Shown one piece after another: positions 35,386-38,750 of a stretch of DNA of 53,045 nucleotides (position 1 is its first letter; the number at the start of each line of letters is the position of its first letter). The DNA lies in assembly GCA_030827125.1 (NCBI GenBank), contig JAURFD010000005.1, forward strand, positions 1-53,045. Reading direction: 5' to 3'. Both the position numbers and the translations under genes were made by a program. Source of the DNA: Candidatus Nanopelagicales bacterium. Its GTDB lineage: Bacteria; Actinomycetota; Actinomycetes; S36-B12. Below the pieces are notes generated by a model. The model was not told the DNA's origin. It saw nothing but the letters and a program-made list of their open reading frames with translations, and did no database searches.

Positions 35386-36488
35386 GCGGCCACCGCCTCG
35401 CGTGACAGCGGGACGCGCGGACGCGGTGGTGCGGGAGTGAGGAACGCGGGCAGTGCACTGACCAGGATGGCGAGAACGGCGAGCGGGGGCAGGGCTGGCC
35501 AGACGGGTGGGTCGACCGACGGCGTGAGCCCGGGGGTGCCGAGGATCCCCAGGATGAGCAGCGACGCGCCCGTAACAACAGCGCAACCGGTGAGCAGCCA
35601 CTCCGCGCCGGACCAGGGGTCGGGGCGATACCGCGAGCGCGTCGTACGGCGCCCCGCGAGGGTGAAGCCGACCAGGCCGATGACGACACCGACGATGAGG
35701 AGCGGCAGGCCGAGGTAGGTCGGAGCCGACGCGTCGAGCAGGGCGTAGACGCCGATGATCACCGCGATGAGCCCGATGATGAGGGCACCGGTCGTCATCC
35801 GACGCAGTTGCGGGCTGCGTTCGGCCTGCCGACCGTATCCGCGGGAGTCCATCGCGGCCGCGAGATTGACGGAGCGCTCGAGGGCACCTTCGAGGACGGG
35901 TACGGCCGCACCGGCGGCGCCGCGAATACCGGCGTTGGCGCGACCGCGGAGCCGACGTGCTGAGCGGATGCGATCAAGATCGGCGACCAGCTGGGGGGCG
36001 AAGGTGATCGCGACGACAAGGGAGACACCGAACTCGTACAGGGCCGCTGGGGCGGCTTTGAGCAGCCGCGCCGGTGAGGCGAGTGAGTTGGCGGCGCCGA
36101 TGCAGGCGAGGATGGTCGCGAGGCGAAGGCCCTCGTAGAACGCCGCCAACATCGACTCGGCAGTGATCGCGCCGCCGAGGCGCACGCCAGCGAAGAGGTC
36201 GGGCAGCGTGAGGGACGGCAGCGTGACGAGGACGGTCGTGCCGATCGGCGCCGACACGATCGCCTGGAAGACCATACGAATCGCGATGACGATGAGGCCG
36301 ATCCGAAGGAAGACGGCGAACGATCGCGACCACGGCGCTTGTGGTCGCCGCGCGGCGACGACGTAGCCGGCCACCGCAATGATGAGTCCGAGCAGGAGTG
36401 GGTTGGTGGTGCGGGAGGCCGCCACAGCAAGGCCGATGGCCCACAGCCACCAGGCTCCCGGGTGCACGAGGCGCGCGGTCATGTTCAC
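35382..36488 (-). CDS. ECF transporter T component (EcfT, energy-coupling membrane protein)
   Basis: 368 residues. N-terminal helices (WWLWAIGLAVAASRTTNPLLLGL) resemble the CbiQ/EcfT fold. The coupling-helix signatures are present: IRSARRLRGRAN (first Ala-Arg-Gly type motif) and AAAMDSRGYGR (second). The C-terminal half has additional hydrophobic helices beyond the usual EcfT length of about 260, a feature of the actinobacterial cobalamin-type systems. GTG at 36488 overlaps the previous stop (GTGA); an ATG two codons later is an alternative. Confidence 0.9.
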   Translation of the reverse strand: MNMTARLVHPGAWWLWAIGLAVAASRTTNPLLLGLIIAVAGYVVAARRPQAPWSRSFAVFLRIGLIVIAIRMVFQAIVSAPIGTTVLVTLPSLTLPDLFAGVRLGGAITAESMLAAFYEGLRLATILACIGAANSLASPARLLKAAPAALYEFGVSLVVAITFAPQLVADLDRIRSARRLRGRANAGIRGAAGAAVPVLEGALERSVNLAAAMDSRGYGRQAERSPQLRRMTTGALIIGLIAVIIGVYALLDASAPTYLGLPLLIVGVVIGLVGFTLAGRRTTRSRYRPDPWSGAEWLLTGCAVVTGASLLILGILGTPGLTPSVDPPVWPALPPLAVLAILVSALPAFLTPAPPRPRVPLSREAVAA

Positions 36489-37429
36489 AGCGATCGCCGC
36501 CGGGTGATGATGACGGCGGCGCCGCCGAGGAGGGCGATGCCCGCGACGGCTCCGCCGGTGAGCAGCGCGCTGCCGCCGCCAGAGTCGGTCGGATCGGGGA
36601 GCGGTTCGGCAAGCAAGGACACGGCCGGCGTGGGTGTGTCGGACGGTGCGGCAGCCACGCTCGCCAGTTCACTCGACGACAGCGCGGGTTGCGGCGTCGG
36701 TGTGGGTGTGGGTGGCCGGGTCGCTGCAGGGGTCGGCGTGACCGACGGTGACGTCGAGGCGTCGATGGACGCATCCGCTGTTGAGTCGGCCGCGCTCGAG
36801 TCGGGCGACAGTGAGTCCACCGACGTCGAACTTGGCTCGGCCGGGGTCGAGGACGTGGCGGTGGGCTTGGGTTCCTTGGTCTTTATGGGCGTCGGTTTGG
36901 GTGACGTGCTCGGCTCGGGTGTGGGCTCGGGCTCGTGTACGACGGTGGCGCACTCACCGCTCGGGTAGGTGCCGATGGCGCAGATGAGACCGCCCTCCAC
37001 GCGAACCGATGCGGCAGCGCGCAGCACGTCGTACCCGGTGGCCTTCGGTTCCGCGCTTACGCACAGCGCCCAGGCGCCGGGCGGGGACTGACCCGGGGGT
37101 GCGTCTTCGGGCAGGCCCGGATCCACGATGACGGCCACGCGCTTGCGCCCATCCTCGGCCGGTGTGTCGGCGCACACGGCGTCGAAGTCCGCGCCTGTGC
37201 GCGGCGGCAGCCCACCGCCATCGCCATCGACGGAGAAACGCCAACCCTCCACCGTGCCATCGGCGGGGATGCGGAAGGCCGGGCCCGCATTGGCGTAGGT
37301 CCAGGACCCATCCGCACCGAGCCAGTAGGACCAGTAGCGGTAGGCCGTTGCCTGCGCGGGGGCGCCGGACACCACGACGAGCCCGGCCACTGAAGTGGCC
37401 AGGGCCCATCGCAGCATTCCGGTGCGCAT
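36485..37429 (-). CDS. SCO2322-family secreted, membrane-anchored protein of the B12 operon
   Basis: 314 residues: signal peptide (1-28), a compact domain of about 140 residues with four Cys (86, 123, 150, 160), a Pro/Ser/Thr-rich stalk (about 166-265), then one transmembrane helix and RRRSL. So the domain is displayed outside the cell. YWSYWLGADGSWTYANAGPA ... GTVEGWRF and TGYDVLRAAAS ... GLICAIG look like the Trp/Gly and helix pieces of the transcobalamin C-terminal (DUF4430) lid, but in swapped order; this resemblance is by eye. Located between the alpha-barrel secreted protein and ECF-T, it probably helps pass cobalamin to the transporter. Confidence 0.75.
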   Translation of the reverse strand: MRTGMLRWALATSVAGLVVVSGAPAQATAYRYWSYWLGADGSWTYANAGPAFRIPADGTVEGWRFSVDGDGGGLPPRTGADFDAVCADTPAEDGRKRVAVIVDPGLPEDAPPGQSPPGAWALCVSAEPKATGYDVLRAAASVRVEGGLICAIGTYPSGECATVVHEPEPTPEPSTSPKPTPIKTKEPKPTATSSTPAEPSSTSVDSLSPDSSAADSTADASIDASTSPSVTPTPAATRPPTPTPTPQPALSSSELASVAAAPSDTPTPAVSLLAEPLPDPTDSGGGSALLTGGAVAGIALLGGAAVIITRRRSL

Positions 37430-37446
37430 GTGGTGACGTCCGCTCG

Positions 37447-38520
37447 CTAGGAGGTCTGCCGGGTGGCCTGCAGATCGGCGACCAGATCCCGGCCACCAAA
37501 GTTGCGCGCATCGGAGCCGGTCGCGACCGCCGCGAGGATGGCGGTACCGAGTGCGCCAGCGCGGCCTCCTTCACCATCCTCGACGTAGGCGTCAATGTTG
37601 TCGGCGAGTGCCATGATGGCGATGTCGGTGGCGATGCCACCGGTGCGCGCGGCGACGAGACCGATGATCGCAACCGCCGTGGAGTTCCAGTCGGTCACCT
37701 GCGGAGTGAAGGCATCGGGGAGTCGGCCGTCATTCGCCCGCAGCTCGCGCGCGAGCCACCGGGCCGTAGCGGCCTTGACGTTCTCTACGCGGCCGTTGCC
37801 ATCGCAGGTCACGGATGGATTGGCGCGTTGCTGACTTCTTTCGCGCACCAGGAATGCGCGTGACAGGCCGAGCAGGCTCTGGGTCGTCGACATCGATTCG
37901 GGCACCATCCCGGACATGTACGGCATGCTGCCCACCTGGTCGGGCTCGGCCATGCAGCCGTAGGCCATGCGGCTCTCGAAGTTCGCGGCGCTTCGGCGCT
38001 GCTTCGATGTGCCATCGACGAGTGTGAGAGCGGCCATCGCGAGGCCGGTGGAGTTGGTGTCCGGGGAGCCGCCGGAGTAGTAGGGGAAACCTCCACCGCG
38101 CGACTGCTGGGCGAGCAACCAGGCTGCCGCATCTCCCGCGGCTTCGGTCTCACCGACCGCGGTGAGCGCGGCCAGGGCAAGGGCTGTGGAGTTGGTATCC
38201 GGGCCCGAGTAGGACTGGGGATCCGACGGCGGGCACGTCACCGTGGTGTCGGCGCGATACGACATGAAAGATCCGTCGGCGCACTGCTGATCGAGGAGCC
38301 AGGTGATGGCCTCGCGCGGGACGCGCGTTTGCGCGGCGACGAGACCCATGAGGGCGTAGGACTGGCGGAAGACGCCGTCGTACGTCGCATCTTGTACGCC
38401 GTAGAGACCTTCGTCAGCGCGTGGCGACGGGGGAGCGGCCGAACTCACTGAGGTACTGACGGTCACGCCAGTGAGAAGGGCACCGGCCAGGGCCAGTGCG
38501 GTGAAGCGTGCTGTGCGCAC
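37447..38520 (-). CDS. Secreted prenyltransferase/squalene-oxidase-repeat alpha-barrel protein (candidate cobalamin binder)
   Basis: 357 residues with a signal peptide (1-28). The mature part consists of alpha/alpha repeats: ITWLLDQQCADGSF and AAWLLAQQSRGGGF (QW-like ends), and three helices headed by DTNSTALALAAL (108), DTNSTGLAMAAL (154) and DWNSTAVAIIGL (277). The Asp-Thr-x-x-x-Ala-x-x-x-Leu-Ala pattern is that of the alpha6-alpha6 barrel of animal intrinsic factor and transcobalamin. No cyclase DxDD motif is seen. First gene after the cobalamin riboswitch; GTG start with AAGGAG at 5 nt. A cytoplasmic terpene cyclase is excluded by the signal peptide. Confidence 0.8.
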   Translation of the reverse strand: MRTARFTALALAGALLTGVTVSTSVSSAAPPSPRADEGLYGVQDATYDGVFRQSYALMGLVAAQTRVPREAITWLLDQQCADGSFMSYRADTTVTCPPSDPQSYSGPDTNSTALALAALTAVGETEAAGDAAAWLLAQQSRGGGFPYYSGGSPDTNSTGLAMAALTLVDGTSKQRRSAANFESRMAYGCMAEPDQVGSMPYMSGMVPESMSTTQSLLGLSRAFLVRERSQQRANPSVTCDGNGRVENVKAATARWLARELRANDGRLPDAFTPQVTDWNSTAVAIIGLVAARTGGIATDIAIMALADNIDAYVEDGEGGRAGALGTAILAAVATGSDARNFGGRDLVADLQATRQTS

Positions 38521-38639
38521 GTGTACTCCTTGGATGAGCGACCCACTGACGATGCCGGCTGGCGCAGGTCCTCCCGCGGAGCCGCCACGTCCCGCAGACC
38601 TCGACGGGGCGATCGATCTGGTGATCGACCGCAGGCGCT

Positions 38640-38750
38640 CGCGCCCGCCAGGTGCTCCGACTTGTCGCTGGATCTGCCGAGGTCAGATGAGCGGCTCACG
38701 GTTGCGGGACAGCGCCGGACTTGCACCGGCTTCCCCTGGACTCGGGCGCG
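38640..38750 (-). promoter_or_regulatory. Cobalamin (B12) riboswitch
   Basis: On the minus strand the conserved core GGGGAAGCCGGTGCAAGTCC continues GGCGCTGTCCCGCAACCGT (38736-38698), the classic aptamer sequence. The B12-box-like AGTCGGAGCACCTGGC lies at 38662-38647. P1 closes the aptamer: CGCGCCC (38750-38744) pairs with GGGCGCG (38646-38640). It lies about 120 nt before the first gene of the ECF/cobT operon. No U-run terminator follows, so control is probably at translation or by Rho. Confidence 0.93.

Follow-up and report, generated by a model that had tools for sequence, protein, structure and literature searches.

The stretch of DNA analysed here, hereafter the window, comprises 53,045 nucleotides of a Candidatus Nanopelagicales bacterium, a freshwater-type member of the phylum Actinomycetota (positions 1 to 53,045 of contig JAURFD010000005.1, assembly GCA_030827125.1). 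It carries a cobalamin riboswitch followed by genes for two secreted proteins, here termed X21 and X22, and for an energy-coupling factor (ECF) transporter. ECF transporters are usually described as working without an extracellular binding protein. Our analysis indicates that the operon is probably an import system for cobalamin or another corrinoid, in which X21 and X22 are the barrel and the lid of a transcobalamin-like corrinoid clamp and the lid is permuted.

The order of the lid domain in the chain is the first observation to be accounted for. Lid homologues were gathered by iterative search through 51 loci and split into 18 with the order of the window and 30 with the other order, in which the second half of the window domain comes first. 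Without rotation the profiles of the two sets matched with a score of 93.5 over 39 columns, and when the window-order set was rotated at cut points in the linker this rose to 147.5 to 148.7 over 101 to 103 columns (top 148.7 over 102). In addition, the C-terminal part of the other-order profile matched the front of each of the 18 window-order lids (32 to 50 bits); the earlier part of this profile was found further on in 15 of these, weakly (5.5 to 16.4 bits), and did not rise above 5 bits in loci L032, L058 and L059. One colinear match each was obtained in the 30 other-order lids, as expected of the training set. The profile places the elements of the window lid in the order S4-S5-S1-S2-helix-S3, to which the strands of the structural model correspond, unlike the beta-grasp order S1-S2-helix-insert-S3-S4-S5; the other-order lids are colinear with DUF4430. 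At the level of profiles, the X22 lid thus reads as a DUF4430/SLBB beta-grasp in circularly permuted form: the chain begins with strand 4 and finishes behind strand 3, and a linker connects strand 5 with strand 1. The swapped order that a preceding sequence-only reading had remarked on in the second protein is accordingly more than a chance resemblance, as judged by the rotation scan, the profile comparisons and the iterative search.

Similarity to the transcobalamin lid was the weak link of that reading and has become its best-supported point, through an iterated search, the strand order, a natural barrel-lid fusion in L080 and recognised DUF4430 genes found beside barrel genes in L070 and L076. 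For comparison, the 20 top-scoring PF14478 loci in other Actinomycetota yielded 19 DUF4430 domains, one locus being lost to a motif filter. The other-order lids scored 27.0 over 93 columns against this set (best of 100 column shuffles 18.5), and the rotated window-order lids 35.2 over 78 columns (best of 100 column shuffles 22.7). A fold unrelated to the DUF4430 lid, looked for on sequence profiles, was not indicated, as the scores lie above 100 of 100 shuffles. A profile of DUF4430 domains only was then searched against 5463 open reading frames (ORFs), a set enriched in lids since the loci were chosen around lids, and iterated at E 0.01 for four rounds. The PF14478 genes beside barrels (L076, L070) came out on top in the first search, followed by the L080 fusion (E 0.00047); three rows passed E 0.01, and the first 15 rows held 10 lids, 2 PF14478 genes and 3 others. 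Upon iteration 48 of 48 lids were reached, and the sole non-lid matches at E<=0.01 in any round were three short genes beside barrels (L070, L076, L089), those of L076 and L089 adjoining a cobalamin riboswitch. Together these comparisons support homology of X22 to the DUF4430 / transcobalamin-type SLBB superfamily. The short protein of L089 (4462-5097), whose gene adjoins a cobalamin riboswitch and precedes that of the barrel, is matched by no Pfam family at E<=0.001; its last-round E of 5.9e-19 was reached after its inclusion in the profile, and it represents perhaps a further lid family.

The architecture of X22 is in keeping with a surface protein tied to the membrane. Its sequence opens with a signal peptide, goes on with a domain rich in Trp, Tyr and Gly and a Pro/Ser/Thr stalk, and closes with a hydrophobic C-terminal segment whose end reads RRRSL. 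This agrees with the stalk and membrane anchor proposed earlier; by eye, most lids of relatives likewise have a hydrophobic stretch followed by basic residues at the C-terminus. X22 scores 152.4 bits against NF040672 (SCO2322_fam), over the curated cut-off of 85, and the closest named relative found for it is in a Candidatus Nanopelagicales metagenome-assembled genome (L032; 74 % over the best segment, which spans query residues 2-290). Relatives were sampled as the 39 Actinomycetota genomes, of 246, with a lid match at E<=0.001. The SCO2322 model is over its cut-off in 9 of the 39 and finds lids outside the window type in part, which is expected because the model is in window order. In the best of five AlphaFold2 models of the lid (predicted local distance difference test, pLDDT, 84.3; predicted template modelling score, pTM, 0.82), strands are predicted at residues 5-15, 18-21, 35-44, 72-79, 96-102, 118-121 and 124-128 and a helix at 108-115. 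Read from residue 72 and then from the start, the model runs strand-strand-helix-strands-strand-strand, and this predicted, rotated order is compatible with the transcobalamin-type SLBB order given in the accessible text of PMC1949818. The alignment sets the conserved YWSYW stretch of the lid opposite the WFYYVNG stretch of DUF4430, and GYDVLRAA opposite the DUF4430 helix.

Several results on the lid weigh against its assignment to this superfamily. The Pfam model of DUF4430 (PF14478) does not match X22 at E<=1, nor any of 15 window-order lids, and matches a single one of 30 other-order lids at that threshold (E 0.12). Window-order lids left unrotated score 35.1 over 43 columns against DUF4430, so rotation lengthens the match and does not raise the score, and the profile probabilities are modest (34 % for the other-order and 76 % for the rotated window-order lids). 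Only the best of the five lid models is good, the others having a pLDDT of 72.6 or lower, and its fold search returned no Foldseek match at E<=0.001 and no VIA row at Z>=2. We take this last result as uninformative and not as support, because both aligners follow chain order and the domain is rotated. Against PDB sequences the window-order lid profile gave weak rows only (best E 0.14) and the other-order profile no matches.

The partner protein X21 matches NF053823 (SCO2321_fam) over nearly its full length (E 2.6e-57, 194.6 bits, below the equivalog cut-off of 300) and TED_complement with 30.9 bits (cut-off 22). Its AlphaFold2 model is an alpha-toroid (pLDDT 91.7, pTM 0.92) that matches PDB toroids, terpene cyclases, with Z up to 23.9, and a profile of 12 close homologues retrieved squalene-hopene cyclases, drimenyl diphosphate synthase, complement C4/C3 and prenyltransferases from the PDB sequences. 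The predicted alpha6-alpha6 barrel fold can be regarded as secure. The D(T/W)NSTA repeats, from which a relation to transcobalamin had been read, are a real pattern but not a transcobalamin-specific one, because sequence and structure searches tie the motif to the whole toroid superfamily, terpene cyclases and complement TED included. A transcobalamin-like role is disfavoured by the barrel being closer to terpene cyclases than to other solved proteins, with squalene-hopene cyclases closest by sequence, and by X21 having no match to PF01122 (Transcobalamin/intrinsic factor) at E<=1. Transcobalamin was absent among the 50 matches listed per search in two fold searches with the barrel model. PF01122 matches 4 of 25 other-order barrels (best E 0.0008), and across the 39 whole genomes it gave two matches at E<=1, none over the cut-off and both within a barrel gene.

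Among proteins of solved structure the barrel comes nearest to enzymes (squalene-hopene and drimenyl diphosphate cyclases), and the pair could instead form a secreted enzyme or remodelling system for corrinoids or another B12-linked molecule, with the barrel as a catalytic toroid. We consider this very unlikely. DxDD, the motif of class II cyclases, occurs at scattered positions in 6 of 45 barrel ORFs and in no window-order barrel, CGEQ, the thioester motif, is absent from all 45, and export would speak against isoprenoid chemistry. A terpene cyclase or complement thioester role of the barrel was dropped on this motif scan.

The barrel, like the lid, is rotated: relative to the order in most relatives outside the lineage of the window, rotation raises the profile score from 300.9 to 429.7. 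Three ORFs (of L040, L086 and L088) fitted neither class of barrel order and were left out of the sorting. An artefact of repeat register was considered and dropped, as the scan has a single optimum (window-domain residue ~210) with a steady fall on both sides round the circle. The arrangement of transcobalamin itself, barrel and lid in one chain, is met in L080, where a single ORF (5069-7381) has a signal-peptide-like start, an other-order barrel, an other-order lid and three CWB2 stretches. SLH repeats accompany the barrel in L071 and, by eye, in L090, and an LPxTG motif lies near the barrel end in L063, L070 and L074; in these five loci the barrel is therefore a surface protein. No recognised surface anchor was found in the window barrel.

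The history of the permuted forms was followed on a tree of the ECF S components with 36 rows, in which seven rows with only one protein placed by order were kept as 'other'. To explain the 10 rows in which both proteins have the window order, 4 changes are required on this tree, at least 3 of them forced by well-supported branches, and a single clean origin of the window order is therefore not shown. In L063 a window-order barrel is combined with an other-order lid, and in L071 and L090, which are closely related to it, the barrels show the other order; barrel and lid therefore did not rotate together there.

The pairing of the two genes is conserved. Counted from match coordinates, barrel and lid lie within 2.5 kb of each other in 33 of the 39 genomes. 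Among 46 lid loci (the window, 14 named and 31 sampled), 38 have a barrel within 2.5 kb on the same strand, 39 have ECF T/A genes within 3 kb on either strand, five of the seven misses being at contig ends, and 26 have an Rfam cobalamin riboswitch within 4 kb on either strand; the riboswitch of L070 heads the opposite strand. Frequent occurrence of the genes away from B12 genes, which would have spoken against a role in corrinoid uptake, was thus not seen. Riboswitch signals also accompany barrels that have no lid, in L062 by Rfam and in L069 by a self-written core motif only.

Exceptions to this context exist, several of which tell against the paired clamp. The complete genome G062 has a lid with ECF genes and no NF053823 match anywhere, and in L044 a riboswitch, a lid and ECF genes occur without an adjoining barrel. 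No Rfam cobalamin riboswitch lies within 4 kb of 20 of the 46 lid loci; the self-written core motif is present in three such loci (L064, L073, L082), and the Streptomyces-type window-order loci L041, L058 and L059 have neither the Rfam riboswitch (within 4 kb) nor the core motif. The pair occurs without adjoining ECF genes in L040 and L089. Lid and barrel matches are on separate contigs in G134, G102, G166 and G058, and G225 has no barrel match, its lid match being marginal (E 7.4e-4, with two stops). Loci of the G062 and L044 kind, together with G134, G102 and G166, where the lid is accompanied by ECF genes while the top-scoring barrel match is on another contig, would suit a role of X22 alone as a substrate-capturing ECF receptor, with X21 as an accessory protein of the wall or a scaffold that makes no contact with the corrinoid. 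The close pairing in most genomes, the natural fusion in L080 and the barrel-only loci with a riboswitch signal argue otherwise, and we regard this explanation as unlikely. A mutual replacement of DUF4430 and SCO2322 among genomes was also considered and set aside as too weak (an overlap of 3 genomes against ~6.7 expected, from 42 and 39 of 246).

The remaining genes of the operon bear on the nature of the cargo (Table 1). The aptamer, matched by RF01689, is the sole over-threshold Rfam match in the window, and 3' of it X21, X22, ECF-T, fused ATPases, ECF-S and cobT follow on the same strand; the earlier claim of a cobalamin riboswitch heading a set of six genes is thereby confirmed by Rfam, Pfam and NCBIfam annotation. 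Given the inferred starts, the junctions X22/T, T/A, A/S and S/cobT are overlaps of a few bases. Folding of the 5' leader was no better than that of shuffled sequences (z -0.64). The fused ATPase ORF matches PF00005 in two stretches (E 1.2e-58) and TIGR04520 with E 4.3e-87 and 292 bits, below the cut-off of 315. The S component of the window has no Pfam match itself and is assigned via homologues: in an alignment of 17 members, PF12822 (ECF S component) matches 13 at E<=0.1, and the window protein is among those it does not match; the profile of this family matched none of the solved S components at E<=10. A T component, two A domains and an S component are thus encoded together, as in an ECF transporter.

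Table 1. Positions of the riboswitch, genes and protein regions of the operon in the window
Feature	Position	Strand	Evidence
AdoCbl-II cobalamin riboswitch aptamer (RF01689)	38642..38748	-	42.9 bits, gathering score 36.5
X21, secreted alpha6-alpha6 barrel (toroid), SCO2321-like, 357 aa; barrel ~37450-38421	37447..38520	-	NF053823, TED_complement, AlphaFold2
X22, secreted membrane-anchored lid protein, SCO2322 family, 314 aa	36485..37429	-	NF040672
X22 lid domain, putative circularly permuted transcobalamin-type SLBB/DUF4430-like	36920..37357	-	rotation scan, profile comparisons, AlphaFold2 strand order
Pro/Ser/Thr-rich stalk of X22 (approximate)	36594..36919	-	sequence
X22 C-terminal hydrophobic membrane anchor, then RRRSL (approximate)	36503..36568	-	sequence
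ECF-T transmembrane protein, CbiQ family	35382..36488	-	PF02361 31.3 bits, cut-off 25
Fused pair of ECF ATPase domains	33766..35385 (start inferred inside ORF 33766-35601)	-	PF00005, TIGR04520
ECF S component, putatively corrinoid-specific	32918..33769	-	homologues matching PF12822
cobT, nicotinate-nucleotide--dimethylbenzimidazole phosphoribosyltransferase	31810..32925 (start inferred)	-	TIGR03160 358.7 bits, cut-off 319.3

The host genome was surveyed as a 2.6 Mb draft that is 97 % complete, in which absences are not proof. RF00174, the only model used in this survey, with 150 of 186 candidates scored, finds the riboswitch site of the window only (34.5 bits). Three B12-binding domains are over the cut-off, CbiC has no match, and FecCD has none over the cut-off of 26.5, with two matches below it (24.0 and 23.5). 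A system for other cargo, such as cobalt or another vitamin, with a riboswitch that merely senses B12, would agree with the assignment of ECF-T to CbiQ, a family that takes its name from cobalt transport, and with weak matches of 6 of 17 S-component members to the riboflavin S family (best E 0.0011). The operons themselves speak for corrinoids, with CobT in that of the window and CobU, a cobinamide salvage enzyme, in that of L037, and the lid is homologous to a B12-binding domain family; with no CbiC match in the genome, moreover, cobalt brought into the cell would not be used for B12 synthesis de novo. Transport of other cargo thus appears very unlikely indeed. In the operon of L037, a Nanopelagicales relative, CobU (cobinamide kinase) is fused to a metallo-beta-lactamase-like domain (11473-12843), between ECF-S and cobT.

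Corrinoid import by a barrel and lid, into a cell bounded by one membrane, may then be envisaged as follows. Judging from secretion signals recognised by eye, X21 and X22 would be secreted as two proteins, the former without a recognised anchor and the latter tied to the membrane via its flexible stalk, and the corrinoid would be held between them. The anchored lid would keep the closed complex beside the ECF S component, which may take over the corrinoid and move it inwards with the T/A module and ATP. CobT would attach the lower ligand during salvage, and the riboswitch presumably reduces expression at high levels of adenosylcobalamin. Separated halves are known to hold cobalamin in the case of intrinsic factor: its cleaved fragments together still bind cyanocobalamin tightly and are recognised by cubilin, according to the accessible text of PMC6257451. 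For the full proposal, an Actinomycetota two-protein transcobalamin with halves permuted partly independently, assembled by its ligand into a clamp that hands the corrinoid to the ECF S component, we consider the chances to be about even.

Precedents exist for parts of this system. In the accessible text of PMC1796856, Burroughs, Balaji, Iyer and Aravind predicted in 2007 that bacterial transcobalamin-like proteins with SLBB domains and alpha/alpha-toroids scavenge B12, encoded in operons with a CbiO-type ATPase and CbiQ in hosts usually lacking key B12 synthesis enzymes. In their systems the toroid may lie on either side of the lid, and a second surface SLBB protein may share the operon. The secreted SLBB domain, the toroid and the CbiO/CbiQ-type operon are common to those systems and the window. 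Their transcobalamin-like clade covers low-GC Gram-positives, planctomycetes and, less often, euryarchaea, and the main text of that paper mentions neither Streptomyces nor permut*. Here, by contrast, the halves are in separate genes of Actinomycetota, both chains are rotated and the window lid is missed by Pfam DUF4430. Animal transcobalamin and intrinsic factor share the alpha6-alpha6 barrel and the beta-domain lid, and differ in being one polypeptide, whereas the window has two genes and no PF01122 match. ECF-CbrT, described as a vitamin B12 transporter in the accessible text of PMC5997447, is likewise an ECF-type corrinoid importer, and the terms operon, DUF and solute binding are absent from that main text. 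The accessible text of PMC1949818 describes permutation of the beta-grasp for E1 enzymes and not for SLBB domains.

Our literature search, outside the coverage of which lay most subscription journals and preprints, returned no report of permuted transcobalamin lids and nothing relevant on SCO2320 to SCO2325, and the NCBIfam names SCO2321_fam and SCO2322_fam carry no function. As far as this search shows, the split actinobacterial form, the permutation of both halves and the SCO2321/SCO2322 assignment are new. Split and doubly permuted, the apparent halves are hidden from standard family searches. The assignment offers a testable function for families present in Streptomyces and Nanopelagicales, and would extend bacterial transcobalamin-like B12 capture to members of the Actinomycetota that are invisible to the standard DUF4430 model. 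If true, the separated and rotated halves would constitute a natural experiment on the closure of a ligand clamp, and a conserved extracellular binding protein for an ECF transporter would be of mechanistic interest.

Some further features of the loci were recorded. L074 (5185-9561; Actinomycetes genome G204) has two tandem barrel-lid pairs before one ECF set and four cobalamin riboswitch matches in 15 kb. In family f45, the barrel-only loci have glycine riboswitches (L062 2471-2662, L069 4160-4410) at a distance of ~1 to 3 kb, and in L064, L079 and L085 (family f10) an RNase P RNA gene is found at the S-gene end of the barrel-lid-ECF cluster. On the plus strand of the window past the riboswitch (39661-44521), genes for a PspA/IM30 homologue, an M48 peptidase, PspAB and a heparinase II/III-like protein stand in a row.

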